This document shows, one piece after another, positions 2,873-25,502 of a stretch of DNA of 25,502 nucleotides (the first letter of the stretch is position 1; each line of letters begins with the position of its first letter). Source of the stretch: a virus; IMG/VR virus record IMGVR_UViG_3300050016_000388, positions 1-25,502 of that record; one strand, written 5' to 3'. The notes below the pieces were generated by a model. That model saw only the letters and a program-made list of their open reading frames with translations. It ran no database searches and was not told the origin of the DNA. The position numbers and the translations under genes are program-made.

Positions 2873-3247
2873 CTAATGAGAGGCTGCGCTGGTAAGCGTC
2901 GTCACCTGGCCGGCGAGCTGGCCGAGCCAGATTGCTGTCGACAAGGGATCGCTGGCAGGCGGGATGGCGCAGGCCGCGTCGCCAAAGCTCTCGATCGAGG
3001 TCACCTTGAGCGCGGCCGTGCTCGCCACCACGCCGGCGGCGATCGTCGCGTTCGCCGCCGCCTTGCCCTTCTGGTATTCGGCGCAGGCGGTCGCGATGAA
3101 CGGGCTCGCCGCCTCGGTAATCTTGTCGGCCGTCGTATAGAGCGAGCCGGCCGAGGCGAGCCCGCCGAGCACCATCATCGGCACCCCTCCGCAGCCCGAA
3201 AGGACTGCGGCGATCGCTACCAGGCCGAGCGCAAGACGCCGGCTCAC
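2873..3247 (-). CDS. Second small lipoprotein of the lysis region
   Basis: A 124-residue protein with lipobox LSGCG (ALGLVAIAAVLSGC). It is followed by a hydrophobic Gly-rich segment (VPMMVLGGLASAGSLY) and a helical part with two more Cys (TACAEYQKGKAAA and DAACAIPPASDP). The GTG start overlaps the stop of the preceding lipoprotein, so the pair is made together and may form one envelope complex. No family is recognised. Forty bases separate it from the TolB-like gene. Confidence 0.75.
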   Translation of the reverse strand: MSRRLALGLVAIAAVLSGCGGVPMMVLGGLASAGSLYTTADKITEAASPFIATACAEYQKGKAAANATIAAGVVASTAALKVTSIESFGDAACAIPPASDPLSTAIWLGQLAGQVTTLTSAASH

Positions 3248-3561
3248 AGTGCCGGCAGGGTCCAGGTGCAGCCGGCCCCGAGCGCCGTCGATACGGCGGT
3301 GGCATCAGCCGCGGCCGCGGTATGGCCGGTGCTGGTCAGCATGTCGGTGACGGTGTTGGCGAGCGCCTGGCCGGCACACGCCGCCGCCTGCGCCTTGGTC
3401 AAATTCGAGGCGCTCGTCGACTTGATGGTCGTCACCGCCGTCGCGGTCGAGGCGACGGCGGTCTGCGCGTCGCTGACCGTTGTCAGGTCCTGCGCGGCCT
3501 TGCAGCCGGAGAGCGCCAACAATGCCGCGGCGACGGCGGCGATGCGGATTTTCGTGGTCAT
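3244..3561 (-). CDS. Small lipoprotein of the lysis region
   Basis: A 105-residue protein with a lipoprotein signal (RIAAVAAALLALSGCK; lipobox LSGC, Cys20). The mature part is Thr/Ala/Ser-rich and helical, with two further Cys (AAACAGQ and GAGCTWTLPAL). The ribosome binding site is AAAGGGAA. It ends in a GTGA overlap with a second lipoprotein. Outer-membrane lipoproteins in lysis cassettes can be spanin subunits, but these two lack the short Pro-rich form of Rz1, so the role is unknown. Confidence 0.75.
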   Translation of the reverse strand: MTTKIRIAAVAAALLALSGCKAAQDLTTVSDAQTAVASTATAVTTIKSTSASNLTKAQAAACAGQALANTVTDMLTSTGHTAAAADATAVSTALGAGCTWTLPAL

Positions 3562-9505: not shown

Positions 9506-9859
9506 TCAGATCGTGCGTGGAGTCAGCGCGTTCGAGCGCAGCATGTTGCGCACGACGCCGGGATTGCGGGCCATCAGCCCGGTGAACCAGCGCTCGACCG
9601 CTGGGCCGTCGGAGGGTCCATGAAAATGCAGGTGCATGTCGCCGCCTCCCTCTCCCTGTGCCCCGCCTTGAGCGATCATGCTCTGGAGTCCTTCGCTGAT
9701 CGAGGCCGGGAGGACCATCTCGCGCGAGTGCAGGAGCGCCGGCCTGGCGCCCGCGAAACTCGGCAGAGCCCACCCGCCGGCGGCCGACGGCACGATGCCG
9801 CCTTGCGAGAACGCGAGCAGGCCGCCGAGCCAGCCGAACAAACCGCCGCCGCCGGCCAC
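9506..9859 (-). CDS. Tape measure protein, C-terminal part in the -1 frame
   Basis: From GTG 9859 this frame gives GGGLFGWLGGLLAFSQGGIV, then LPSFAGARPALLHSREMVLP and DMHLHFHGPSDGPAVERWF. The segment with HSREMVLP is the common end of phage tape measure proteins (compare the frequent pattern GEAVIP). GTG 9859 has no clear ribosome binding site, so this is best read as the continuation of the preceding frame after a -1 shift at the G6 run. Natural mutation, a sequence error, or programmed slippage would all give the same picture. The distal tail gene starts ten bases after the stop. Confidence 0.7.
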   Translation of the reverse strand: MAGGGGLFGWLGGLLAFSQGGIVPSAAGGWALPSFAGARPALLHSREMVLPASISEGLQSMIAQGGAQGEGGGDMHLHFHGPSDGPAVERWFTGLMARNPGVVRNMLRSNALTPRTI

Positions 9860-10413
9860 AGCCCCCCGGCGGTGGCGGCGGCGCTGGCGCCGGCGGCTGC
9901 GGCACCGCCGCCCACCGCGGCCGTGCCGGCGGCCATCGTGGTGGCGAGCGCTGCAAGGGCGGCCGTGTTCGTCGACAATGCGGCGGTGTTGGCGGCCTGG
10001 TCGCCGGTGTCGAGCAGGTTGCCCAATCCGAATTGCTTGCCGATAAGGCCGCTGAGCCCGCTGCCCAATACCGAGCCGACACCCTGCCCGGCAGCGGGTG
10101 CTGCCAGCCCGAGCAGCGCGGCGAGCGGGCCGGCCGCCGCTTGCGAAAGCGCGGTCTCGGCGAGCGAGACGAACCCCGTCTCGACCGCGCGCGTCGCGGC
10201 GACGCCGGCCTGCTGCCAGGTCATCGTGCCCGCGAGCAGCCCGGCTGCCGCGCGCTTCCAGCCGGCGCCGATCTGGTCGAAGGCTTGCGTGTAGCCTCGC
10301 GCCATCTTGGCCGCCGCGCTGGCCGTCGCGCTGCTCATCGACGCGCTCAGCGCCGAGATCTCGTTCAGCTGGTCGGCGATGTCGCTGTAGCTGGAAGGGG
10401 AACTCGATCGCAT
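9676..10413 (-). CDS. Tape measure protein, N-terminal part, frame broken at a G6 run
   Basis: The frame opens at ATG 10413 (GAGGGAG upstream). It encodes WKRAAAGLLAGTMTWQQAGV, then a hydrophobic stretch (GPLAALLGLAAPAAGQGVGS), both typical of the C-terminal half of tape measure proteins that set tail length. At residues 183-184 (six G on the minus strand, 9862-9867) sense coding moves to the -1 frame; after that this frame reads only Arg/Ser/Cys-rich nonsense to its stop at 9676. The intended protein is therefore 9506-10413, about 302 residues. This lacks the long N-terminal helical part of ordinary tape measures but is in the size class of the short GTA tape measure. Confidence 0.7.
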   Translation of the reverse strand: MRSSSPSSYSDIADQLNEISALSASMSSATASAAAKMARGYTQAFDQIGAGWKRAAAGLLAGTMTWQQAGVAATRAVETGFVSLAETALSQAAAGPLAALLGLAAPAAGQGVGSVLGSGLSGLIGKQFGLGNLLDTGDQAANTAALSTNTAALAALATTMAAGTAAVGGGAAAAGASAAATAGGLWPAAAVCSAGSAACSRSRKAASCRRPPAGGLCRVSRAPGRRSCTRARWSSRPRSAKDSRA

Positions 10414-10478: not shown

Positions 10479-11144
10479 CTACTGCAGTTCGATCGAGGAA
10501 AACTGGGTCCGCTTAGCCGCGGCTTCCGGGTCCTTGGACCCCCGCCACTCGATGAGGTGGGTGTAGGCGAGGGTGACGCCGCCGCAATACGGCACACCGG
10601 CGGCGTGCCACACGATCCGGTGCAGCCCGTTGAGGCCGGTCGAGAGATCCTGCTGTTGATGCGCGATCCGGGGTTTCAGCGAATTTTCGAAAAACTGGTA
10701 CAGCTCGATCTTGCGGATCCCCGGACAACGGCGGCCCAGCAGACGCGAGACGATGTCATAGAGCTTGCTCTGGTCGTAGAACTGCTCGGTCCGCGCCGTG
10801 AGCAGATTGTGCAACAGGTTCGATTCGACGCTCCGCACCGTATCGTCCGGCCGCAGATGCAGTAGGAGGACGAAGGCGTCGAGCTCCCCCGGGAGTTTGG
10901 CGTAGACCGTGACCAGCCCGCTGCCGATCGGCCTGCCGTTGACGTCGGTGTCGTGGCGATGAGCCATCGTGTCGGCGAGAAAATTCTGGTCGATTGTCAT
11001 CGTCGCCCGCAGCCAGCGCACGCATTCCTTGACCGTGACGCCAAGGCACCCCGGCCCGTCAGCCGGCTGGGCGGCAGAGGCCGGTGCCGGAGGCGCGCCG
11101 GCAGCGATCCCGAGCGCCAGGCCGCAGAGAAGCAGCCACCGCAT
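10479..11144 (-). CDS. Exported protein of unknown function between tail chaperone and tape measure
   Basis: A 221-residue protein with a Sec signal peptide (MRWLLLCGLALGIAAG, then PASAAQ). The mature part has four Cys (GPGCLGVTVKECVRWL, RRCPGI, PYCGG), suggesting disulfides in the periplasm, and a central helical domain (SNLLHNLLTARTEQFYDQSK). I do not recognise a family. It interrupts the normal order tail chaperone then tape measure, where no exported protein is expected. It has its own candidate promoter and a good ribosome binding site (GAGGGA). It may be a cargo gene acting on the host envelope, for example in superinfection exclusion, but nothing in the sequence proves this. The 65-base gap after it is GC-rich with no T tract. 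Confidence 0.75.
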   Translation of the reverse strand: MRWLLLCGLALGIAAGAPPAPASAAQPADGPGCLGVTVKECVRWLRATMTIDQNFLADTMAHRHDTDVNGRPIGSGLVTVYAKLPGELDAFVLLLHLRPDDTVRSVESNLLHNLLTARTEQFYDQSKLYDIVSRLLGRRCPGIRKIELYQFFENSLKPRIAHQQQDLSTGLNGLHRIVWHAAGVPYCGGVTLAYTHLIEWRGSKDPEAAAKRTQFSSIELQ

Positions 11145-14052: not shown

Positions 14053-15540
14053 TTACCCGTTGCCGATATTGGTGATGACCCCCATCGCGAACGGCGCGTA
14101 GACCGCCAGCACCTCTTCGGCGTAGACGCCAGCCTGGCGCTGACGGGTCACCACCGGCCAGTCGATCTGGTAGTAGTCCTGCCGGGTCTTTACCTCGGCG
14201 ACGTTCGGTACCTCATTCGACTGGTACTGAACGGGCAGGTGCTCGGCCCAGCCGATGATGGTGCCGGGCGGCACCCGCGGGTGAATGCGGACCGGAATAC
14301 GCAACCCACCGTTCATCGTGAACGGATTGAAGTAGAACGAGACTGCGCCCGCTGCCACGAGATCATAGGCGTTGCCGTCGCCGCTTACCTCGTAGCGCAG
14401 CAGCGGCCCCGAAGCATTCGACAGCACCTTGTTGGTGATGTTCTTCAGCTCCTGGACATTGACGTAGAGCACGGTCGGCGACACCTGGTAAAGGTTCCAC
14501 ATCTGCTGGAACATCGTGTCGATCTCTACGACCGAGCCACGACCCGACGCGGTCAGCGGCGTGCCGGTGCCGGCGGTGCCGGTCGGCAGGATGCTGACAT
14601 AGGCGTTCGAGCCCGCCTTCAACGCGGTGGTGAGAAGCCCGTCATAGGCATAGCTCGGGTTGGCCGAATTGTCGGCGGTCACCGCCGACACCGCCTGCTG
14701 TCCACCGGTCAGCGGTGCCGCGACGCTGGCGCTATTGATCGCGGTGATCGCCTGTAGCGTCTCCGAACCGGCGGTACCGACAAACCAGGCATAGGCGACC
14801 GCGCCCTGGATCGCAGTGACGCTGGCGAATAGCGTCTGGCCCAAGGTTACCGCCTGGGTCGCATTCACGCTTTTGTTGGACGAGCCGCCAGCCAGCACGA
14901 AGGTCTTGCCGTCGGCGCCGTTGATCGTTTTGGTCGTGGCGATCCCCGTGGCCAGGCTCGAGTTCTGGTAGCCTTCGAGGGTCAGTGCGACGACGATGAC
15001 CGAATAGGTCGCGCTCGGCAATGTCGCCCCGGAACCCGAGGCCGACAGCACGGGCGTTGTCGGGGTGCCCAGTTGCACGGAGGCGTTGCCAGCGAGGATC
15101 GCCATCTCCTCCTTTAGCATCAGTTTTTGCAACAGGCGAAACGTCATGCGGGCCTGTATGTCCTCGAAATGGCGGCCGGCGCTGATCGCCTCGTAGGTCG
15201 CGGCGTCTTCCTCTCCGATCGTCACATAGGCCGCCGATTTGGAGGCGGTCGAATATGCCATCTGGCCTGAACGCTGACCTTCCGGGACCCAGCCCATCGA
15301 GTCGAAGCCGGAACCGGTCAGAGCGGTCACCTGGCGCCAATTGGTCGCCGTGCCGGTACCGCCGCCGACCCGCGCTATCGAATTGCGGATGGGCGTCACG
15401 ACGGGGTAAAGGTTTTTCGCCGGCGCTTGCAGGTCGAAAGCAACAAGGCCGGTGCCGGTGGAGATCGATTTGGTGATTCGGTCGTCGGGCGTGCGCAGCG
15501 CGCCCTTCACCAGATCGAGCGTGTCCTGGGTCGGGTTCAT
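14053..15540 (-). CDS. Major capsid protein (HK97-fold type) with an inserted Ig/FnIII-like domain
   Basis: A 495-residue coat protein. The N-terminal part (KNLYPVVTPIRNSIARV, then DSMGWVPEGQRSG and the long helix EDIQARMTFRLLQKLMLKEE) is typical of HK97-fold coat proteins. The C-terminal part has an NGGLRIPVRIHPRVPPGTII segment and ends with EVLAVYAPFAMGVI. Residues about 158-275 interrupt the fold with a beta-rich stretch (LPSATYSVIVVALTLEG, then GAVAYAWFVGTAGSE) that reads like a fibronectin- or Ig-like domain, probably exposed on the capsid. The start at 15540 has GGAAGGA six bases upstream. An ATG 39 bases earlier lies in the terminator and is rejected. Gene order protease, capsid, connector supports the call. 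Confidence 0.92.
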   Translation of the reverse strand: MNPTQDTLDLVKGALRTPDDRITKSISTGTGLVAFDLQAPAKNLYPVVTPIRNSIARVGGGTGTATNWRQVTALTGSGFDSMGWVPEGQRSGQMAYSTASKSAAYVTIGEEDAATYEAISAGRHFEDIQARMTFRLLQKLMLKEEMAILAGNASVQLGTPTTPVLSASGSGATLPSATYSVIVVALTLEGYQNSSLATGIATTKTINGADGKTFVLAGGSSNKSVNATQAVTLGQTLFASVTAIQGAVAYAWFVGTAGSETLQAITAINSASVAAPLTGGQQAVSAVTADNSANPSYAYDGLLTTALKAGSNAYVSILPTGTAGTGTPLTASGRGSVVEIDTMFQQMWNLYQVSPTVLYVNVQELKNITNKVLSNASGPLLRYEVSGDGNAYDLVAAGAVSFYFNPFTMNGGLRIPVRIHPRVPPGTIIGWAEHLPVQYQSNEVPNVAEVKTRQDYYQIDWPVVTRQRQAGVYAEEVLAVYAPFAMGVITNIGNG

Positions 15541-15617: not shown

Positions 15618-17057
15618 CTATCGCGCCGCGAATCCCGCGGGCCGGCTAAGAGGAGTTATCGGGTTGGCGTGCGCCGCCTTGATCAGGGTCAGGGTGCGTT
15701 CCTCATCGCTCATTCGCGCGAGCGCGGCGACGACGTCCTCGGCGGGCGGGATCGTGCCGCCGGCATCTTCCCGCTTCGAGATTCCAACAAATCCGCGCGC
15801 GACGGTCTGCGGCGGCAGCGGCGTGCGGGCGATCTCCTCAACTCGTTTTTGCAGTGCATCGAGGCGCGGCACGATCTCGCCGGCGAGCTTGGCAAGGCCA
15901 CTGGCGAGGGGCGCGAGATCCGGCTGGCGCGCCTTGCGCAGATTGTCGGAGATGGCCATCGCGGCCAGGTCGACCTGAGCCGATCCGGCGCTGCCATCGA
16001 CCAGCTCGCCGCTTTCTTCGGCGACCAGCGATTGGAGGAAGTCGCACAATTCGGCAATGATCCCCTGCAGCCGTGGTGCCAGGGGCGAGTCGTCCGCTTC
16101 CATCGCCGCCTCGATCGCAATGCGGTCATGGAGCCAATCGAGATCGATGATGAGCTGCGCCAGTCGCCCGGCCTCGGCAAGGCTTTTGCGCGTTGGTTCG
16201 GCCGCACGGCCAGGCTCGGAGGCGACCGCCGGCGGCCCGGCGCGATCGATCTTCTCCTGCCAGGCGGCGACGATCCGCACCTTGATGCGCTCGAGTTGGC
16301 CCGCCGTGTAGCGGCGCGCGTTACCGGGCTGATGGATAAAGGCCCAGGCGCTGCGGATATGGCGCTCGGTGTCAATCGGATAGCGCTTCTTTCCGTCCGG
16401 ACGATAGCCGGGATCGGCATAATCGACCTTGCCATAGGGGTCGTCGTCGCCGCTGTCGGCCGCATCCTCGTGATGGTCGTCCGCCGCTGTCGCGGCGGCG
16501 GGCTCATGCCCTTCGAGGCAGCGCACCGCCTCCGCCTTCGCGAGATGGCGGTGACCGGCAACCCCACAATCCCAGATCTGCACGGGTGCGCCGGTTGTCG
16601 CCGCAATAGTGGCCATACTGCCTCCTGTTGGCCCGGTGGAAAATTTCCAGCAATCGAATACCGCATCGGGGTTGGCCGGACGGTCGACCACCGAGATTTC
16701 GGTCAGGCGAAGAGCGGTGATCAGCCGCCGGTCGGCGGGATCACGGGCGGTCACCCTGCCGCCGATTGAGAAACCCTTGTAGACGCCTTCGACCACCTTC
16801 TGCCAGGCATCGCCATCGACGATCTTGGCGCCGAGATAAAGGCCCTTGTCGTCGACGCCGGCTTCCTTGGCGACGCCGACAGCCGAGGGCTGGTGCATTT
16901 CGCGGATGTTGGCGAAGCGCATATAGTCGTCGAGCGCCGCCGCCAAAGCCTCGCGCGAGACGGTCTCGCCCTGGTCGTCCTCGGCCTCGGTCGAGGCATA
17001 GCCCCACACCATCCGCTGCTCGGCGTCGACCTTGGCGATTGGCCAGTAAAAGCGCAT
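15618..17057 (-). CDS. Prohead protease (XkdF/HK97-like) with long C-terminal extension
   Basis: A 479-residue protein. Residues 1-140 form a phage serine protease domain that cleaves scaffold during capsid maturation. It has the opening segment VWGYASTEAEDDQGE, candidate catalytic His55 in REMHQPSAVG, Ser97 in YKGFSIGG, and the ISVVDRPANP strand. Residues 150-180 hold a Cys/His cluster (CGVAGHRHLAKAEAVRC) that could bind a metal. Residues about 195-260 contain DPGYRPDGKKRYPIDT and HIRSAWAFI, resembling the DUF6582-type domain often fused to phage proteases. The rest is helical and charged, consistent with a built-in scaffold. The start at 17057 is set by GGGGAGA seven bases upstream; the frame is open earlier, but without such a site. 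The capsid gene follows after an intrinsic terminator. Confidence 0.9.
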   Translation of the reverse strand: MRFYWPIAKVDAEQRMVWGYASTEAEDDQGETVSREALAAALDDYMRFANIREMHQPSAVGVAKEAGVDDKGLYLGAKIVDGDAWQKVVEGVYKGFSIGGRVTARDPADRRLITALRLTEISVVDRPANPDAVFDCWKFSTGPTGGSMATIAATTGAPVQIWDCGVAGHRHLAKAEAVRCLEGHEPAAATAADDHHEDAADSGDDDPYGKVDYADPGYRPDGKKRYPIDTERHIRSAWAFIHQPGNARRYTAGQLERIKVRIVAAWQEKIDRAGPPAVASEPGRAAEPTRKSLAEAGRLAQLIIDLDWLHDRIAIEAAMEADDSPLAPRLQGIIAELCDFLQSLVAEESGELVDGSAGSAQVDLAAMAISDNLRKARQPDLAPLASGLAKLAGEIVPRLDALQKRVEEIARTPLPPQTVARGFVGISKREDAGGTIPPAEDVVAALARMSDEERTLTLIKAAHANPITPLSRPAGFAAR

Positions 17058-17103: not shown

Positions 17104-17601
17104 TTACAGTTCGAAGGCGCTGATCGACACATTCTCGATCGTTGCGGTGCCGCCCGTAATCGCGGCGAGCGCTACGTCGATCCAGATCGCTGTTCCGATC
17201 GTGAGCCCGGTGACGACACAGTTGACCGTGAATGGTGCCTTCTCGGCCGTCGTCGCGGCGATGTAATTCACGAAGCCGCCGCAGGTGTTCCCAGTCAGCG
17301 CCCCGGCGTTTGCCGGCACTCCGCCCGTGCCGGTGCGCATCTGCACCTTCCCGCCATCGGCGATCGCCGTGGCGTTGAAGATGTCGCCGCTGATGACGAC
17401 CAATACGTTGCCGCTGAACACGGGCGTGAGCGCGCCGGCGAGGCCCATCATCAGCCCGGTCGTGTTGGTCGTGCCGGCCGGAGAGGCGACGTTGGTCTGC
17501 GACGAGTTGTTATAGGAGGTGCCACGAACCGCCGTCGCGGCACGCGCCGATGACACCGCGACGGTGAGCAGCAGCGCAAGGAGGAGGAAAAGCCATTTCA
17601 T
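17104..17601 (-). CDS. Small exported fibre-associated protein
   Basis: A 165-residue protein with a strong Sec signal peptide (MKWLFLLLALLLTVAVSSARA). The mature region is beta-rich with two Cys, in GNTCGGFVNYIAA and VNCVVTGL, and ends IENVSISAFEL. This resembles small jelly-roll modules at fibre tips, without a firm family match. I chose ATG at 17601 because GGCGGGGA lies six bases upstream. A second ATG at 17619, directly after the fibre stop codon TAG, is possible and would add six residues. It lies between the second fibre and the protease, so it belongs to the same exported group as its neighbours. Confidence 0.75.
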   Translation of the reverse strand: MKWLFLLLALLLTVAVSSARAATAVRGTSYNNSSQTNVASPAGTTNTTGLMMGLAGALTPVFSGNVLVVISGDIFNATAIADGGKVQMRTGTGGVPANAGALTGNTCGGFVNYIAATTAEKAPFTVNCVVTGLTIGTAIWIDVALAAITGGTATIENVSISAFEL

Positions 17602-17619
17602 CTCAATTCCCCGCCTCAT

Positions 17620-19485
17620 CTAATTAACCGTCCATGTGCCGGTGACGCTGCGCGCCACCCACTGCGATGCCGCATGGGCCTCGATGCAGGCTTGCGAGAA
17701 CGCCGCCGTCGCCGTGATGTTGCCGCTCGCCGCGCTGTTGGTCAGGCCGATCGCGACTTTCTCGCCCGATGCCGCGGCCACCACGACGGTCTGCGCCGCC
17801 GACACCAGGAAGCAATAGTTCAAGCCCGGCGCCGCCGCCGGCAATGTGAAGGTGACCGAGCCAGCCGCGCCGATATTGTCGAAATGCGTGCCCGCATCGC
17901 CGGCGACGACCGGGTACGCGCCGGTCTTCGATACCGTCAGCGCTTTGTGCAGCAGCGTTCCGCTCGTCGCGATATTGCCCGCCCAGTTGATCGACCCCGC
18001 CGTCAGGGTGCCGACCGTCGTGATATCGGAGGCGACCAGCTTCGAGGCGGCGATCGAGCCGGCCAGCATCGTGTTGGTTACGGTGCCAGTGTCGCCCGAG
18101 CCGATCACCGTGTAGGATGCGGTGTTCGGGAAGGTGATGGTATTTGCGGTTGCGCTTAGGGCTAGCGTGTGCGCAACATTTTTCATGTCGAGCGTCAAAG
18201 TGCGCCCGGCTGACAGCGCCGTCGACGAGGTCCCCGCCAGCGTCACATCAAAGGCAGCCGACGTGTCGCGGATCGCCAGCCCGGTCAGGCCGGTGGCAGT
18301 ACCGCCCGCAATTGTCGGCGTCGTCAACGTCGGAGAGGTCGCCCGCACATAGCCGCTGCCGGCGGTCCCGGTCGGCGCGATGCCCCGGTCATCGACATCG
18401 CCGGCAACACCGAGATTACCGGTTGGTGAAATACTGGCCAGCAAAGTCGCGGTCGAAGCGCTTGTTTTTTGGTAGAAGCTAAAACTTGTCGGCGCCAAGG
18501 TGTCGTTGTTAAAGAAATCTACCTCTCTTTGAGAGGCAAAATGGTCCGTGATAGCGAACGACGTTGTCGCGCTCGGCGGATAGGCGCCCGCTGTGTTGGC
18601 TACGGAATAAATCGACGCATTAGTGCTTGCTACAGCCGTTTTAGTGTCAATAGCCGTACCAGCACCAAATTCGCCGCCGCCCTGGTTATTAACAGAAAAG
18701 GCGTTGGACGCGAAAGGGTTGCCAGATATTGTTGCCCCGGTAAAATCCAGCCCCGACGTATGTGTGCCGACGGCCTTAAAAATCGTCGCGCTGTTGCTGT
18801 CGTCGTAAAACGCGGCCTGCGCAAAGGGGTTAACACTATCTCCCGAAATTTGATGCGCCCAGAAACCGTAGTTGACGTTGCGCTGCGCAAGATATCCGTT
18901 ATAGGACCAATTCGAGCCGTCAGGTAAGCTAGCGGTGCTTGTAAAGCCTGTGGTAGATTTATGGATGCCGCCCGATACCGCCGACACTATGGTTTTCTGT
19001 AGGGTGGTGTTTGGCGTGGATACTTCGGTAGCGGCGTTATTCATGTCAAATTCGGCCGTGGTCGCTGTCGCGTCTGCGCCATTGAATACATCAACAATTG
19101 GATTGATGGACCAAATAGATGTTCGGCCGTTACTGGAGTTGATATAGGGATAGAATGCGACAAAATCCCCGGCAGCCGGGCTGGTGGCCCAACTACTCTC
19201 GGTGCCGGCGGCAATACCGATTCTCAGTCCGGACACATTGCCGATGCCGGTGGAACTGGGATTGGTCAGCAATGAGGCCTTGCCGCCCAAAATTAGTCCC
19301 GCGAAGGTCGGGCTGTTCGCCGTACCGAGGCCGAGATTGTTGAGCGCGGCGGGCAGCGTTGCGTTCGCAGCGTTGGCGGCAAGGCCGGGCGGCGGCTGGA
19401 TCGGCGGCACCTGGGCCGCCGCGGGCAGCGTCAGCGCGAAAGCCGCCTGCCAGATGGCTAGATAGCCGAGGAGCTTCATCATCAC
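17620..19485 (-). CDS. Exported tail-fibre-like protein with an AT-rich central module
   Basis: A 621-residue protein starting with a Sec signal peptide (LLGYLAIWQAAFALTLPAAAQ). A Pro/Ala/Asn linker follows (PPGLAANAANATLPAALNNL), as in fibre shafts. The middle, residues about 95-350, is Ser/Thr/Asn-rich and encoded by clearly less GC-rich DNA than its flanks. The C-terminal part has SPTLTTPTIAGGTATG, a shaft-type repeat common in fibres, and ends with a compact module (FTLPAAAPGLNYCFLVSAAQ) frequent at the tips of phage fibres. The start region reads GTG-ATG-ATG (19485, 19482, 19479); all three are in frame and any could be used. No catalytic motif is seen. A receptor-binding or virion-surface role is likely, with the exact partner unknown. 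Confidence 0.82.
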   Translation of the reverse strand: MMMKLLGYLAIWQAAFALTLPAAAQVPPIQPPPGLAANAANATLPAALNNLGLGTANSPTFAGLILGGKASLLTNPSSTGIGNVSGLRIGIAAGTESSWATSPAAGDFVAFYPYINSSNGRTSIWSINPIVDVFNGADATATTAEFDMNNAATEVSTPNTTLQKTIVSAVSGGIHKSTTGFTSTASLPDGSNWSYNGYLAQRNVNYGFWAHQISGDSVNPFAQAAFYDDSNSATIFKAVGTHTSGLDFTGATISGNPFASNAFSVNNQGGGEFGAGTAIDTKTAVASTNASIYSVANTAGAYPPSATTSFAITDHFASQREVDFFNNDTLAPTSFSFYQKTSASTATLLASISPTGNLGVAGDVDDRGIAPTGTAGSGYVRATSPTLTTPTIAGGTATGLTGLAIRDTSAAFDVTLAGTSSTALSAGRTLTLDMKNVAHTLALSATANTITFPNTASYTVIGSGDTGTVTNTMLAGSIAASKLVASDITTVGTLTAGSINWAGNIATSGTLLHKALTVSKTGAYPVVAGDAGTHFDNIGAAGSVTFTLPAAAPGLNYCFLVSAAQTVVVAAASGEKVAIGLTNSAASGNITATAAFSQACIEAHAASQWVARSVTGTWTVN

Positions 19486-19943
19486 CAGCTCCTCGCGGCC
19501 ATTTGGCAGGCGGCCGAGCTCGAATAGATCCGGATGCGTCCGGTATGCGGGATCCCCGCCATGCTGAGCGAGCCGCCCTGGCCGCCATTCGCGGTTGCTC
19601 CGGCGATCACGATCATCATCGGGGTAAGGGTGCCGGCCTGGTCATCGAGCACGACCGTCAGCCCGGCGGTGCATTGTGCCTGGACGACATATCCAAGCCG
19701 CGGCACCGACGGCGCCGGGATCGTCGCGAGCAACGAGAGGCCGGCGAGCGAAGGCGCATTGGCGCTGTAATCGGTGCCAATCTGTCCGGGCGAGGCCATT
19801 GCCTCATTGGCGCCGAGCTGGCGGTAGGCTGGCACATCGACTGATTTGCTCTGCGCCAAGGCGCTGCCGGACGAGCCCAAGGCAGCAGCGACGAGCGCCG
19901 CCGGTAAGAAAGCCGCCCGGAGGCAGCGCGGGGAGATGGTCAT
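19482..19943 (-). CDS. Small exported protein of the head/fibre region, unknown function
   Basis: A 153-residue protein with a clear Sec signal peptide (FLPAALVAAALGSSGSALAQS, cleavage expected after ALA). The mature part holds a Cys-containing core (VQAQCTAGLTVVLDDQAG), a Gly-rich segment (GATANGGQGGS) and a C-terminal RIRIYSSSAACQMAARSW. No known family is recognised. I chose the ATG at 19943. A TTG at 20000 would add 19 residues before the signal peptide and lacks a good ribosome binding site. There are 84 bases between the portal stop and this start. Its stop overlaps the start cluster of the next fibre gene. It may assemble with the fibres, but this is inference. Confidence 0.75.
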   Translation of the reverse strand: MTISPRCLRAAFLPAALVAAALGSSGSALAQSKSVDVPAYRQLGANEAMASPGQIGTDYSANAPSLAGLSLLATIPAPSVPRLGYVVQAQCTAGLTVVLDDQAGTLTPMMIVIAGATANGGQGGSLSMAGIPHTGRIRIYSSSAACQMAARSW

Positions 19944-20027
19944 GCTGGGATTACCGTCAGTTACCGGTATATTCACGGGGATGGGGGGAAGCGGCCCCAA
20001 TTCAGCTTCACCTGAAGTTGCGCGTTT

Positions 20028-21377
20028 TCAGGGTTGCTTGAGCGATGTTCGCCGCGTCAGCGCAGGGAGCGAGACCGGTCCGTCGCGGCCATAGACCATC
20101 GGCTGTTCGCCGCCGGCGACTGGATCAAAGCCAAGGATGTCGCGCACCTCGTTGATCGCGTAGATCCCGTCCCGGACGTAGATGTCGAGCATCTTGGCTT
20201 GGTCGGCCGGGTCGGCCGGGCGCAGATCGACCCAGCCGAACTCGAGGTCGGCATGGCCCATCCGGTCCTGGATGACGTGGTCGGCGAGCCGCTTGACCCA
20301 GCCCATCAGCGGCGCCATTCCCTCGGCGAGCGCGGCCTCCTGCGCCGTCTCGGCGGTGGCGCGGTTGACTTGCCGGGTAAACGCGCTGGACGGCAATGAG
20401 AAGGCGTAGCAGACGATGCGTGCCAGCCACTCGTCGAACTCGTCCTTGTAGGGCGCCTCCTTGAAGGGCTGGTACTTCGCCCCGCTTGGGCCCCATACGA
20501 GCCTCGATCGCGCGCCGGTATTGCCCGCGAGCACGCTGTCGAACCATTCCTGGAACTGCCGGATCTGTTCGACGTTCCACCCGTCCGGTGCATTCAGCAA
20601 CCCGGGCGGCACATTGCCCTCGGTGAAGTGCTGCAGCTGCATCACCTGCCGCCGCAGGGCGATGTTGACGGTCATGACGATCTGCTCGACCGGGCCGAAG
20701 CCGTAGGCCTTGTGCGGGCGCGGATTGCGCGGCAGGTAGAGCAGCTCGTCGCTCGTCAAGAGCTTCCATGGCCGGCCGTGGATCACCTGCTCGAAAGCCG
20801 GTGCCGGCGGTTTGGGCCGGCGTCCGGTCTCGTCGAACAACACCTTGATGGTGGCACCGTCGACGACATCGAGACCAATGATCTCGCCGCTGCGGTTGCG
20901 GCGCAGCTCAAGTGCCGGAGCATCGAGCACCAGAACGTCTTCGAGAAGCTCGCGCAGCCAGCTCGCGAACGGCCGCTCACCATCCGGTTGGCGCCAGAAA
21001 TCGGCAAGGTGTGCGCTGCGCGTCGTCGCGTCTGCGGCCGGAATCTGTGTCGTGCGCGGCTTGATCGTCCAGTCGAGCTTCTCGATCTGGTCCTTGCGGG
21101 TCTCGATCGCCAGGCGCGTGATGTCATGGGCATCGGCCAGGGCGCGCAGCTCGTCGAACGCGATCGGCTCATAGGCGCGCGGCGTGTAGATCGTGTTGAC
21201 GCCGACCGGAAAATCCCAAAGCCGCACTCGCTCGGGCTCGGGCGGCGCCAGCGGATAGCCGGGCGAGAAGATCCCTTGGCCCGGTTGGAACACGGCGCCA
21301 AACTGCGCCTCGAGGCCCTGCTGACCCCAGGTGTAGGAAGCAGTCAGGGGCTTGCGCGTACCACTTTCGGGAGGCAT
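20028..21377 (-). CDS. Phage portal protein
   Basis: A 449-residue protein that would form the dodecameric ring at the capsid vertex through which DNA enters and to which the tail attaches. Recognisable portal features are the early DITRLAIETRKDQIEKLDW helix, the DVLVLDAPALELRRNRSG strand pair, the LLYLPRNPRPHKAYGFGPVE loop and the helix segment AFSLPSSAFTRQVNRATAE, followed by a C-terminal NEVRDILGFDPV motif. The reading frame is open further upstream, but the start is the ATG at 21377. That ATG shares a base with the stop of the fibre gene (TGATG) and has GGAG upstream; sequence before it is out-of-frame fibre coding. Position between terminase and protease fits, except that a 2.8-kb fibre gene separates it from the terminase. 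Confidence 0.93.
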   Translation of the reverse strand: MPPESGTRKPLTASYTWGQQGLEAQFGAVFQPGQGIFSPGYPLAPPEPERVRLWDFPVGVNTIYTPRAYEPIAFDELRALADAHDITRLAIETRKDQIEKLDWTIKPRTTQIPAADATTRSAHLADFWRQPDGERPFASWLRELLEDVLVLDAPALELRRNRSGEIIGLDVVDGATIKVLFDETGRRPKPPAPAFEQVIHGRPWKLLTSDELLYLPRNPRPHKAYGFGPVEQIVMTVNIALRRQVMQLQHFTEGNVPPGLLNAPDGWNVEQIRQFQEWFDSVLAGNTGARSRLVWGPSGAKYQPFKEAPYKDEFDEWLARIVCYAFSLPSSAFTRQVNRATAETAQEAALAEGMAPLMGWVKRLADHVIQDRMGHADLEFGWVDLRPADPADQAKMLDIYVRDGIYAINEVRDILGFDPVAGGEQPMVYGRDGPVSLPALTRRTSLKQP

Positions 21378-24187
21378 CAGAAGCTGCTCCAGGCTGATCG
21401 CTTCCAGGTATTGGGTGCGGTGCAGGCGTAGAGGTAATTCGAGTCGAATTGGAGCGCGCCGGTCTGGCAGGCCGTCGAGCTCGACGCCGGCGTCCCGATC
21501 GGCATCGCCATGCCGTTGATGCTGGCAGTCAGCGGGGTCGCGTAGATGATGCGGAAATTGCTGCCGTCGAATTGCAGGATAACGAGCTCGTAGGCGCTGG
21601 TGTTGGTCGAGAGCGCCAGCGAGGTCTTCGCCCCGAGCGTTCCCGGCACCAGGATCTTCTCGCCGCCGCCGCCATTGACCGCGACGCTCATCGTCTTTGA
21701 GTTGTCGGTCGCGATGCCGATCGTCCAGCCGGGCGAGAGCGTGCCGATTGCCGGCAGGGTCACCGCGAGGCCGGCGCCCGGCGCGTTGAAGCTTGATAAG
21801 GCGTTGCCGCCATCCGCGGCGGTCGCCGTGTAGGTGTTGACGGACGGGAACGACCATCGCGTCGTCGCGCCGGCGCTGCCCGGGAATGCCAGGCCTTGCG
21901 CCGTCAGCGGGGTCACCTGGGCGACGCGAAAATTCGACCCGTCGAATTGCAGGACCGCGAATTCGTAATTGCCGGCGGCGAGGGCCAGCGAAGTGATCGA
22001 CGGGCCGCTGCCGGGATAGAGGATCTTGCCGCCGCTAGTCGGGTTGACCTGGACCGCGGCGAGCTTGCCGTTGTCATTGGCGATCGCGATCGTCCACCCG
22101 GCGCTGATCGCATTCGTCGACGGCAGCGTTACCGTCAGATATCCGAGCGGCGAGTTGTAAGCCGAAATCGCGTTGCCATTGTCGGCGAGGGCGGCGCTGT
22201 AGGCGCTCACAGATGGGAAACTCCATCGGCTGATGCCGCCGATGCCGGCCATGCCGATCTGCGTTGCTGTCGCTGGCGTCGCCTGCTCGATCCGGAAATT
22301 GCCGCTGCCGTCATACTGCAGCACGATGAATTCATAGTTATTGCCGGCGAGGCTCAGCGAGGTCACGAGTGCGCCGCTGTTCGGGTAGAGCAGATGCCCC
22401 CCGCTCGTGCCGTTGACCTGCACGGCGAGGCTCTTGCCGTTCTCGGCGGTAAAGCCCATCGACCAGCCCGATGACAGCGTGGTCGTCGACGGCAGCGTCA
22501 CCGTCAATCCCGCGCCTGTGTTGTAGCTCGACAGCACATTGCCGTTGTCGGCGAGCGTTGCGCTGTATCCCGCGCTCGACGGGAAGAGCCAGTTTCCCGG
22601 CCAGTTGCCGGGTTCGATCCCGTTGGCGATGCGCGTGTTGCGGGTCGAGGTGCGCACCCGGTAGTTCGAGCCGTCGTTGACCAGCTCGACATATTCGTAA
22701 TTGCCGGCGCCGAGCGTCAGCGCCGCGAGCGCCTTGCCCCCGGAGAGGATCGATCCCGACGGCGGCGTCAATGTCATGCCCTTGCCGTTGTCGCTGGCAA
22801 ATCCCATCCACCAGCCGATCTCGACCCCGGCCGGCGCCGGCAAGGTGATCGCCATCGAGGCGCCGGGTGCGTTGTAGCTCGAAATCGCCGTGCCGCTATC
22901 GACGCCAACGGCGGTGTAGCTGGCGACGGAAGGGAACTGCCACGGCACCCGGTTGCCGGTGCCGATCACCTGGATCGAGGATGATTGCGGGCCGCGATTG
23001 ACGACATTGCCGCCATAGTTCGGGTTGATCAGCACATTGCGCGTCGAAGCCGTCGCGCTGACCGCCGTGACGCAGTTGAAATAGGGCGAGATGAACGTGT
23101 TCTGCCCGTCATGGGCGAAGGTGATCGAGAGGCACGTCGGCGAGACTTCGAGATCGAGCCCGAGAAAGGTGTTCGAGAAGTTGTAGCCATTTTCGAGCAC
23201 GAGCCCGGCGCCGCCGGTGCCCTGCGCCGTGCCGGCGCCGCTGATCCGCGAGAACTGCGTCTCTTCGAGCGCGAGACCCGCGGCGCCGCCGCCCGAGACG
23301 CACACGGCCCAGAGGTCGCTGTCGAGCACATAGTTGAACTGACAGCCGCCGGCACCGGCCGCGGTACTGGCGTTGTTGACCGCCAGATGATCGATCTTCG
23401 CCGAATTGTGCGCGTCGGCGAAATTGTAGGTGCCGAGCATGAACGGATAGGAGGGCCGCGACAAATTGGCGTTGATGTCGGCCGCGGACGGCAACCCGGT
23501 GTGCAGCGTGATGCTGACCCCGGGGTTGATCGCATCAATGGGCGCGGCGAAGCTACCCCCGCCGTGCAGCGCGACGATGACCGTGCCGCCTGATGTAAAC
23601 GGCGCCGTCGTCGATACGCCGAGCACGGTGGCGCCGGCGCTGTAGCCGGCGGTCAGGGTCGCGAGGTTCTGCTCAGCCGAATTGGCCAGGATATCGAGCG
23701 TACCTTCGATCTTCAGATAGAAGCAGCCGGTCGGGCTTCCGACCGACCCGCCCGAGCACAGCACCTGCAGCACCGGGCCCGAGCCGATCGAGCGCCCGTC
23801 GAGGATCGCGCCTTCGGAAATCAGGCGAAAACCAGTCGCCGCCTGGCTGGCGTAATCGGCGGTGAGGAGGCTGGTAATCTTATATTCCCCGGCCGGGATA
23901 TGCACCGGCCAGTTGCTGGCGATTCCTGCGTTGATGGTGGCCTGAAGTGCGCTGGTGTCGTCATGGCTGTCGTCGCCGACCGCGCCATTGCATTTGACAT
24001 CGATCCACGGCCGCCCCGAGCACATCAAGACGTCGCCGTTGAGGGTCGCCGTTCCGGTCGTCGACAGCGTCGAAAAATTGCCCGGCGACTGCGCCAGCGC
24101 GCTCCAGGCGACCAGAACTCCCGCGATCAGTGCCGCTGCCGTGAGCGTACGGTCGATCCATGTCGTCGGGGGCATCAGGGTTACCAC
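21377..24187 (-). CDS. Exported tailspike/fibre-like protein, beta-helix head plus four tandem repeats
   Basis: A 936-residue protein that is probably a receptor-binding fibre or tailspike. Residues 5-34 form a Sec signal peptide (hydrophobic core LTAAALIAGVLVAW, end ALAQS). Residues 60-400 look like a pectate-lyase-type right-handed beta-helix: the entry motif WIDVKCNGAVGDDSHDDTSA is the usual start of such domains, and HIPAGEYKI follows. Residues 414-885 hold four repeats of about 105-120 residues. The last 40 residues (ACQTGALQFDSNYLYACTA, then WKRSAW) resemble a small C-terminal module shared by many fibres. The start is GTG at 24187, overlapping the previous stop; an ATG at 24175 is a good alternative and still leaves a complete signal peptide. 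The stop shares one base with the portal start (TGATG). A signal peptide on a fibre is odd and is discussed in the findings. Confidence 0.85.
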   Translation of the reverse strand: MVTLMPPTTWIDRTLTAAALIAGVLVAWSALAQSPGNFSTLSTTGTATLNGDVLMCSGRPWIDVKCNGAVGDDSHDDTSALQATINAGIASNWPVHIPAGEYKITSLLTADYASQAATGFRLISEGAILDGRSIGSGPVLQVLCSGGSVGSPTGCFYLKIEGTLDILANSAEQNLATLTAGYSAGATVLGVSTTAPFTSGGTVIVALHGGGSFAAPIDAINPGVSITLHTGLPSAADINANLSRPSYPFMLGTYNFADAHNSAKIDHLAVNNASTAAGAGGCQFNYVLDSDLWAVCVSGGGAAGLALEETQFSRISGAGTAQGTGGAGLVLENGYNFSNTFLGLDLEVSPTCLSITFAHDGQNTFISPYFNCVTAVSATASTRNVLINPNYGGNVVNRGPQSSSIQVIGTGNRVPWQFPSVASYTAVGVDSGTAISSYNAPGASMAITLPAPAGVEIGWWMGFASDNGKGMTLTPPSGSILSGGKALAALTLGAGNYEYVELVNDGSNYRVRTSTRNTRIANGIEPGNWPGNWLFPSSAGYSATLADNGNVLSSYNTGAGLTVTLPSTTTLSSGWSMGFTAENGKSLAVQVNGTSGGHLLYPNSGALVTSLSLAGNNYEFIVLQYDGSGNFRIEQATPATATQIGMAGIGGISRWSFPSVSAYSAALADNGNAISAYNSPLGYLTVTLPSTNAISAGWTIAIANDNGKLAAVQVNPTSGGKILYPGSGPSITSLALAAGNYEFAVLQFDGSNFRVAQVTPLTAQGLAFPGSAGATTRWSFPSVNTYTATAADGGNALSSFNAPGAGLAVTLPAIGTLSPGWTIGIATDNSKTMSVAVNGGGGEKILVPGTLGAKTSLALSTNTSAYELVILQFDGSNFRIIYATPLTASINGMAMPIGTPASSSTACQTGALQFDSNYLYACTAPNTWKRSAWSSF
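21533..22948 (-). repeat. Four tandem protein-level repeats in the tailspike-like gene
   Basis: Four diverged copies of a 105-120 residue unit lie at residues about 414-515, 531-637, 653-760 and 776-885. Each follows the same order: a W-x-F-P-S opening, DxGxxxSSYN, a TVTLP strand, GW followed by DNGK or ENGK, a Gly-rich turn such as KILYPGSG, SLAL, and a closing YEFxxLQFDGSNFR. Copies 2-4 are closer to each other than to copy 1. Such arrays usually arise by unequal recombination and set fibre length. Confidence 0.85.
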
Positions 24188-24624
24188 TGGCGGGCCGCAA
24201 AGCCCTGGCCCGTTGTCGCGCCGTAAAGGCTCACCGCCCCGGCGGGCTTATACCCGGAGGGGGTGGCGTACAGACCCCCATTCGCGGCGAGTTGGATGCT
24301 GGCGCCGCCCGCCGAGGCGACCCCAACGTCCGAGATCCACAGCGCGGCGGACGAATTGTTCTGCACGACAAACCCGTTCACCGGGACGAGCCCGCCGAAC
24401 AGCGCTTGGGCGCTGCCCCCGGTGGAGACCGCGCCGCTGCCGTCGCTCGCCACGGCGCCGGCCGTGTTGATCACCGGCAGCGGGTTTTGCAGCCCGACTG
24501 GGGTCGATATGCCCTGCGCATTGGTCGCGGCCGGCGCGTGCAACGGCACGAGGTTGCCGTTGCTATCGACCTCGGTCGCCAGCGACTGCACCATGGTATT
24601 GGCGTCTTTGACGAGCAGCGTCAT
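24181..24624 (-). CDS. Small beta-rich phage protein, unknown function
   Basis: A 147-residue protein with no signal peptide or membrane segment. It is rich in Gly, Ala, Ser, Val and Asn. Its second half (FVVQNNSSAALWISDVG, then GLYATPSGYKPAGAVSLYG) reads like the short beta-sandwich modules found in capsid decoration or fibre-associated proteins, but I do not recognise a named family. It starts inside the terminase stop (ATGA) and its own stop overlaps the GTG start of the next gene, so it is embedded in the operon. A structural role is inferred from position and composition only. Confidence 0.8.
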   Translation of the reverse strand: MTLLVKDANTMVQSLATEVDSNGNLVPLHAPAATNAQGISTPVGLQNPLPVINTAGAVASDGSGAVSTGGSAQALFGGLVPVNGFVVQNNSSAALWISDVGVASAGGASIQLAANGGLYATPSGYKPAGAVSLYGATTGQGFAARQW

Positions 24625-25502
24625 GGAGCTTCACTCTCCTTTGCAGCGAGCCGCCGATAAGTCTCGAAAATTCCGTCCCCCGCACGGGGCTCGACCAGCA
24701 GCTCGGTGATGGCCCAAACCAGCGCGTCGACCCGGTCCGGCGAGTAGCCGGCCGCTGTCCGATCGAAATCGCTGGTGAAGGCGCACATCTGGTCTTCGAG
24801 CTGCGGGAAGGCGCCGAGGTGGTGAATTCGGCCCTGCTCATAGAGCGCGGCCACCGGCTCGGCTCGCGCGACCTTGCCGCGCGCCGCCCTGACCGCGCTG
24901 AACGGCACGTTCGGGTCAATCATCCGCAGCGTCGCCTCGACCATGTCTCCGCCATTGTTGATTTCAGCAACAATGCGGTCGGCCTGGTGGGTGCCGTAAG
25001 CGGCGATCGCGACGCGCGCCCATTCCGCCGGCGCATAACGGCCCGAAGCGTCGGCGAGCACATAGCCGTGCCCGTTCGCGTCCCGGCCGGCGACGATGAT
25101 GCCGGTCTCGTCGGAATCCTCGTGCGAGCTTACCGCCGGGTCGATCGCGACGACGATTCGCGCCAGTTCCGGCCGCGCCAGTTCCGGCAAGGCGGTCATG
25201 CGCGTTGCTTCGATCATTCCGTGCGTCCACAGCGCGCCAGGCATGTGGTCGAGGATCTCGCCGTCGAGCTCCTGGCGGCCGAGCCGCGTGCCCTGATAGC
25301 GGCGAACGATCTGGTCGAGGAAGGCCGCCGCCAGATTCTCCTCATTCTCAATTGTCCGGCCGCGGGTCGTGACCACTTTCGGGTCGGCCAGCAACTCGCG
25401 CAGCAGCTTGATCGGCCGCGGCGTGGTCGTCACCACGGCGCGCGGATCCTCGCCGAGGCGCAGCCCGAACATCAGCATGTCCCAGGCAGCCGGATAGCGC
25501 CA
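24621..25502 (-). CDS. terL: Terminase large subunit, C-terminal part (5' end outside window)
   Basis: ATP-driven packaging motor and nuclease that cuts phage DNA and pumps it into the prohead through the portal. The visible 293 or so residues hold the end of the ATPase domain (WRYPAAWDMLMFGLRLG, then TTTPRP) and the RNase H-like nuclease. Likely metal-binding acidic residues are the Asp in VVAIDPAVS, the Glu in VAEINNGGD and the Asp in DRVDALVWAIT. This layout is typical of the Terminase_6 family with its C-terminal nuclease. The reading frame is open to the right edge, so the N-terminal Walker A part lies beyond base 25502; the first ATG in the window (25478) is internal. The stop overlaps the next start by four bases (ATGA), implying coupled translation. 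The small subunit is not in the window. Confidence 0.95.
   Translation of the reverse strand, partial: WRYPAAWDMLMFGLRLGEDPRAVVTTTPRPIKLLRELLADPKVVTTRGRTIENEENLAAAFLDQIVRRYQGTRLGRQELDGEILDHMPGALWTHGMIEATRMTALPELARPELARIVVAIDPAVSSHEDSDETGIIVAGRDANGHGYVLADASGRYAPAEWARVAIAAYGTHQADRIVAEINNGGDMVEATLRMIDPNVPFSAVRAARGKVARAEPVAALYEQGRIHHLGAFPQLEDQMCAFTSDFDRTAAGYSPDRVDALVWAITELLVEPRAGDGIFETYRRLAAKESEAP

Follow-up and report, generated by a model that had tools for sequence, protein, structure and literature searches.

The tailspikes of tailed phages such as Sf6, Dettilon and phi29 (gp12) fold in the cytoplasm and have no signal peptides. Some prophages do encode exported proteins among their late genes, and those of the lambda Lom/Bor type are outer-membrane proteins or lipoproteins of the lysogen. 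Export of a tail spike is unexpected because phage particles assemble inside the cell, and the missing signal peptides of phage receptor-binding proteins have been taken as support for phage origin (PMC6199706). Here we describe a protein family, F936, that breaks this expectation: its members are putative exported spikes, encoded in a head operon, that have kept a signal peptide and carry their cysteines in pairs. The family is named after a 936-residue protein of the window, by which we mean the whole 25,502-nucleotide stretch analysed (IMG/VR record IMGVR_UViG_3300050016_000388, positions 1 to 25,502), a 25.5-kb contig with nearly all genes on the minus strand.

F936 shares a right-handed beta-helix and a receptor-binding type of C-terminus with the Sf6, Dettilon and phi29 gp12 tailspikes, as judged from its model, but differs from them in its predicted export and conserved cysteine pairs. 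It shares export and late-gene location with Lom/Bor-type proteins, which are not spikes. In role, the nearest likeness is TspA (rcc02623) of the gene transfer agent (GTA) RcGTA, a loosely attached, biofilm-degrading tailspike that is possibly also freed at lysis (PMC13420450). Both would be beta-helix spikes co-produced with particles, by elements with the same type of baseplate genes. The analogy is one of role. TspA is a matrix depolymerase with weak attachment (PMC13420450). The TspA gene lies outside the structural cluster and the paper mentions no signal peptide, whereas F936 sits between the terminase large subunit (TerL) and portal genes, its signal peptide is conserved and its cysteines are paired. 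F936 would thus be an exported counterpart, in role, of the detachable RcGTA tailspike. Two bacterial systems also come close. WceF of Pantoea stewartii is exported, has a tailspike fold and acts on exopolysaccharide (PMC7949094), but it is a host gene in an exopolysaccharide cluster, with a Tat signal, and is not part of a phage operon. The MAT fibres of Bdellovibrio combine a signal peptide and a conserved beta-rich N-terminal domain with variable phage-fibre-like tips (PMC10769870), but they are bacterial predation adhesins encoded outside a head operon. In the literature searched, which left most subscription papers outside it, no tailed phage with a conserved exported spike is described.

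Read from its right end, the window encodes TerL, a 147-residue protein (dec147), F936, portal, S153, F621, S165, S78 prohead protease and major capsid protein (MCP). A sequence-only reading had placed four open reading frames (ORFs) of 936, 153, 621 and 165 residues around the portal, between terminase and protease, and both place and sizes are confirmed:

F936, 21377-24187, minus strand: 936 amino acids (aa); signal peptide at 24092-24187; predicted beta-helix spike whose C-terminal part holds about four repeat domains and a module of phage-fibre type
S153, 19482-19943, minus strand: 153 aa; signal peptide at 19854-19943; 123-aa mature part with a predicted all-beta core and 2 conserved cysteines
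F621, 17620-19485, minus strand: 621 aa; signal peptide at 19414-19485; long, Ala/Thr/Ser-rich and fibre-like, with 2 mature cysteines
S165, 17104-17601, minus strand: 165 aa; signal peptide at about 17539-17601; mature part of about 144 aa with 2 cysteines

Signals were scored with one home-made Sec scorer, which looks for the three parts of a signal (a charged n-region, a hydrophobic h-region and an AxA c-region) and was tried out on OmpA, PhoA, MalE and LacI as a sanity check. Relatives comprised 80 viral loci found by their portal and 27 bacterial-genome loci found by portal alignment; gene calling in them relied on a codon model that had been trained on the window, and a threshold of 4.5 was applied with any in-frame start allowed. 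In the window, F936 scored 3.7 from its ATG, S153 5.9, F621 5.0 and S165 5.4, and TerL, dec147, portal, protease and MCP gave no match. The predicted signals of these four genes end, in the same order and with a slash for the cleavage site, in LIAGVLVAWSALA/QS, AALGSSGSALA/QS, FALTLPAAA/QV and MKWLFLLLALLLTVAVSSARA/AT. The F936 N-terminus has the charged n-region, hydrophobic h-region and AxA site of a Sec signal peptidase I substrate, and no lipobox. Shuffling single N-termini is a weak, moderately discriminating test (13-113 of 2000 shuffles matched the observed score), so the evidence for the signals is comparative, and conservation and cysteines carry the argument.

Among the relatives, 44 of 64 F936 proteins passed the threshold, the failures being mostly truncated or miscalled starts, and all 51 with an intact N-terminus show a signal followed by A/Q. 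Signals were also found in relatives of S153 (17/17), S165 (6/7) and F621 (3/4). Control proteins gave almost none: 0/104 portals, 0/95 proteases, 0/79 MCPs, 0/46 HT212, 0/28 MTP and 1/50 TerL, with 2/50 for the 147-aa gene that are apparently signal-bearing paralogues in two loci, L034 and L038. Identity of F936 relatives to the window protein is 31% across the last 28 residues of the signal versus 81% across the next 45. The type of signal is thus kept while its sequence diverges, beside an almost fixed cleavage site, which argues that export is under selection. No lipobox, membrane or outer-membrane anchor, or twin arginine was seen in F936, S153, F621 or S165; lipoprotein export and Tat export of the four were rejected, as lipobox and twin arginine are lacking. 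The scorer and the conservation in relatives bear out the earlier proposal that all four proteins start with a cleavable Sec signal.

Cysteines provide a second line of evidence. In 53 F936 sequences they form the pairs 56-66, 144-155, 282-296, 352-372, 773-793 and 907-922, and no sequence holds one partner of a pair without the other. Two pairs alternate, 282/296 occurring in 32 sequences and 773/793 in the other 21. Of the signal-bearing genes in the TerL-portal and portal-protease intervals, 38 encode an even, non-zero number of mature cysteines and 5 an odd one (clusters 19:3), whereas genes without signals in the same intervals show random parity (even:odd 54:57; clusters 22:20). Because gene starts are predicted and the relatives share kinship, the cluster-level counts are the safer figures. 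F936 therefore has, in pairs that are never half-present and in this parity, the marks of a protein from an oxidising compartment. A dec147 paralogue in L034, and likewise in L038, bears a signal and has exactly 2 cysteines, while dec147 itself usually has none. The fibres of Klebsiella phages Whistle and AloofButler have a C-terminal module that matches that of F936, with the second cysteine of the pair present and the first absent. Pairing, parity, the contrast with these fibres and the dec147 paralogue together argue for disulfide bonds and hence for real export. With a signal conserved in function rather than sequence and cysteines that pair, the inference that these proteins are exported is strongly supported, and sequence comparison makes it highly likely that the F936 family is exported.

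The fold of F936 is very probably that of a beta-helix spike. Pfam PF12708 matches it at 1.4e-6, and the AlphaFold monomer model, which draws on 44 mature F936 sequences, predicts a beta-helix followed by repeated beta domains. In Foldseek the model matches the tailspikes of Dettilon, Sf6 and phi29 gp12 (E 1e-4 to 4e-4). Exported beta-helix polysaccharide lyases are matched too, with RbmB of Vibrio among the lyases, and so are alginate epimerases and PfbA, a surface adhesin; viral matches are tail fibre or pectate-lyase proteins. The predicted right-handed helix and receptor-binding type of C-terminal part are those of a tailspike, and the signal in 51 of 51 intact sequences is not. The label "fibre-like", given earlier to all four proteins, holds for F936 and is plausible for F621, while S153 and S165 are better described as small proteins of unknown kind. 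A sequence search of the PDB with S153 gave nothing significant, and its low-confidence AlphaFold model (pLDDT 63.5) gave no PDB match below E 0.03. A profile comparison of S153 with dec147 gave E 0.01 at a probability of 4%, and we do not use it as proof of homology.

The exported proteins are embedded among particle genes. The other genes of this part of the window are:

Terminase large subunit, 24621-25502, minus strand: Terminase_6C at 1e-18; gene cut by the contig end
dec147, 24181-24624, minus strand: 147 aa; precedes F936; no signal peptide and mostly 0 cysteines; phrog_22789
Portal, 20028-21377, minus strand: Pfam Phage_portal at 7.6e-26
S78 prohead protease, 15618-17057, minus strand
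Major capsid protein, 14053-15540, minus strand: assigned by position; phrog_13692 at 2.9e-103; relatives share the order
sp221, 10479-11144, minus strand: predicted exported protein with 4 mature cysteines, between tail chaperone-like genes and tape measure

The last of these is a fifth exported protein, within the tail genes, that the sequence-only reading had overlooked; its relatives are signal-bearing in 6 of 6 cases and lipoprotein-like in L078 and L079. The ORFs of dec147, F936 and portal overlap, the portal ATG sharing TGATG with the F936 stop, and so do those of S153 and F621. Since the ORFs overlap head genes and promoter- and terminator-like sites in the window are no more frequent than in shuffled sequence, co-expression with the particle genes is likely. 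F936 is present in 56 of 62 intervals between TerL/dec147 and portal, and in full length it is found only adjoining the portal. The gap between portal and protease, in contrast, ranges from 0 to 5.5 kb across relatives. In the subgroup of the window it usually holds signal-bearing proteins, most commonly S153, and in other subgroups the gap proteins, of 368, about 500 and 125 aa, have no signals. Counted over all subgroups, 26 of 76 complete intervals contain one or more signal-bearing genes. The long gap proteins have in common a stretch like NAxNAxLPxARxNLGLG after the signal (NAANATLPAALNNLGLG behind that of F621) and variable C-terminal modules, one of which is a GDSL esterase. Some larger exported proteins end in a domain related to S165. 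From interval conservation on the one hand and subgroup-bound slot content on the other, we regard F936 as the core and S153, F621 and S165 as lineage-specific accessories. The suggestion that a distinct system is carried in the head operon is thereby supported, with F936 as its constant part and the portal-protease slot swapping exported cargo.

Signal-bearing genes were also observed in other slots and elements. Cargo genes between TerL and portal in L046 (7133-7996) and L062 (7085-7996) have Tat-like signals (SRRRFLTGL and SRRRFMTGL) and a single mature cysteine. In L093 (4134-5761), from a Binataceae metagenome-assembled genome (MAG) with a portal 53% identical, the same slot holds two signal-bearing genes, for which similarity to window proteins was not detected. 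Other phage gene sets on two long contigs, and the tail end of the element of L021, likewise have proteins with Sec or Tat-like signals in the fibre region (L195, 12210-16533; L188, 2569-5048; L189, 14744-15594). Phages of these soil bacteria may thus often encode exported fibre-like proteins.

Where might such a spike have come from? Four genomes of the carrier bacterial family encode stand-alone chromosomal proteins of 280-320 aa, outside any phage context, in which the F936 beta-helix follows a hydrophobic, signal-like N-terminus. They are homologous to the N-terminal half of F936, with matching cysteines:

L250, 5658-6605: stand-alone beta-helix protein
L251, 2147-3109: stand-alone beta-helix protein
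L252, 2865-3704: stand-alone beta-helix protein
L253, 2154-3002: stand-alone beta-helix protein

Two of the four have clear signal scores (6.3 and 6.1) and two are borderline (3.5 and 3.3). In two genomes the gene is located close to mraZ, and one of the two contigs has mraW-ftsL-ftsI-like genes as well. In a midpoint-rooted tree without an outgroup, all F936 sequences form one clade inside the more diverse stand-alone proteins. This nesting suggests that a phage took an exported host beta-helix domain together with its signal, a direction that rests on four stand-alone sequences. Among isolated phages, searches returned generic pectate-lyase and fibre C-terminal matches and no member of the family, and a megablast of the operon against phages had no match. 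The nearest isolates, Brevundimonas phages Polewnik and Strzyga, have portals that are 43% identical; in the Polewnik annotation TerL adjoins the portal and the four genes are absent.

We propose the following course. F936 and its companions would be made alongside the head proteins, from a late operon of phage type, and exported by Sec; F936, S153 and F621 would be cleaved at A/Q, and disulfide-bonded folding would take place in the periplasm, away from the particles being assembled in the cytoplasm. F936 would become a beta-helix spike whose signal and oxidised helix also occur in an exported protein of bacteria and whose C-terminus recurs in phage fibres. As the four have no lipobox or membrane anchor, contact with the outside would most likely come at lysis, which would bring the periplasmic pool to matrix, neighbouring cells and new particles. 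There the spike would bind or degrade glycans of the matrix or cell surface, either free or loosely docked to particles. That it acts outside the cell after lysis seems probable; the full account, in which we infer periplasmic folding, release at lysis and a glycan target, we rate slightly better than even. These and our other degrees of certainty are judgements, not computed values. Several points weigh against the account. The beta-helix model is of moderate confidence (mean pLDDT 75.6, pTM 0.44), and no catalytic residues or active site were identified in F936. No export route across the outer membrane was found, and reaching the outside would therefore require lysis or help from a host system. 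The promoter scan covers sigma70-type sites, not alphaproteobacterial promoters, and cleavage and localisation of F936 are predictions.

It is tempting to see the spike as a true virion part instead. After lysis, exported, oxidised spikes might use their conserved mature N-terminus to attach permanently to heads or tails, which would make a two-compartment particle with a cytoplasmic capsid and periplasmic, disulfide-locked spikes. The place of F936 next to portal and dec147, its retention in 56 of 62 intervals, its fibre-type C-terminus and the fact that the mature N-terminus is its most conserved segment (81%) all fit such docking. No docking partner is known, however, and no tailed-phage precedent was found in the literature searched. 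We consider permanent docking unlikely, and similarly so a two-compartment particle whose spike was captured, with its signal, from a bacterial exported beta-helix. Less likely again is that these are moron-like proteins of lysogenic conversion, unrelated to particles, that alter the producer cell as adhesins or receptor maskers. Signal peptides, stand-alone host homologues, carriers resident in chromosomes and the exported phage-fibre-like adhesins of Bdellovibrio (PMC10769870) are all compatible with this, but the ORFs overlap head genes, full-length F936 occurs only beside the portal, the four have no lipobox or surface anchor, and promoter or terminator sites of their own are not above chance in the window, non-sigma70 promoters being outside the scan. 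The overlaps and missing anchors also leave two earlier options, a separate envelope structure and permanent decoration of the host surface, with no positive support; the third, capture by particles after lysis, fits the sequence as well as release of free spikes does. Finally, we reject as a general explanation, and think very improbable, that the hydrophobic N-termini serve assembly or targeting and are removed by the prohead protease, the proteins themselves folding in the cytoplasm. An S78 protease is encoded alongside, and this explanation has been given for signal peptides predicted on capsid proteins of Porphyromonas phages (PMC10367356), but it does not account for cysteine pairing and parity, for AxA/Q sites behind divergent h-regions, for the signals of stand-alone chromosomal proteins, which have no prohead protease near them, or for unrelated cargo sequences that have only the signal type in common.

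The carriers make up a family of phages of soil bacteria, or of elements derived from such phages. Of 39 genomes from one alphaproteobacterial family, 10 contain F936, a few of these 10 only as the stand-alone form or as fragments; of 385 genomes drawn from the class, only 2 do. One of these two is a generic match (G215, L184), rejected as F936 because it is a beta-helix protein without an obvious signal. Beyond the MCP, the window has an RcGTA-like tail module that ends with Phage-tail_3 (3.2e-25) and Rcc01698_C (6.5e-15) proteins, and a GH25 lysozyme; gene order and baseplate genes are both of RcGTA type. Two MAG copies form 22-27-kb blocks between host genes (L185-L187, G011:C142; L197-L199, G012:C283), one with rpsF/rpsR/rplI and an MBL gene at one end and cysND at the other, and the second at a different site. 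Both begin with an S24 repressor and follow the RcGTA-like order, and the first also has a DUF6456 gene and a GH25 lysozyme. The MBL neighbour is common to L018, L024 and L091 (86-88% identity), and other neighbours are found elsewhere. No integrase or replication genes were recognisable among the predicted genes of the two MAG blocks, some of which were not identified; one relative, L073, has an integrase. Because the two chromosomal copies lack a recognisable integrase, the carrier could be a resident, GTA-like element, a temperate phage being the other possibility; the two blocks themselves are candidates for a family of GTA-like elements or of proviruses without an integrase.

Elsewhere in the window, on the minus strand, pieces of a 357-408-aa tape measure homologue are spread over two frames at about 9506-10300, which probably reflects a frameshift or an error of assembly. 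Behind the lysozyme lie a small lipoprotein-like gene (3244-3561) and a signal-bearing PD40 beta-propeller protein (1822-2832).

A conserved exported spike in a head operon would imply either that particles are assembled in two steps or that a phage or GTA deploys a soluble spike, a strategy that the authors of the TspA study state is not known for phages (PMC13420450). With its stand-alone homologues, F936 offers a testable case of a phage spike that shares an exported domain with a host chromosomal gene.

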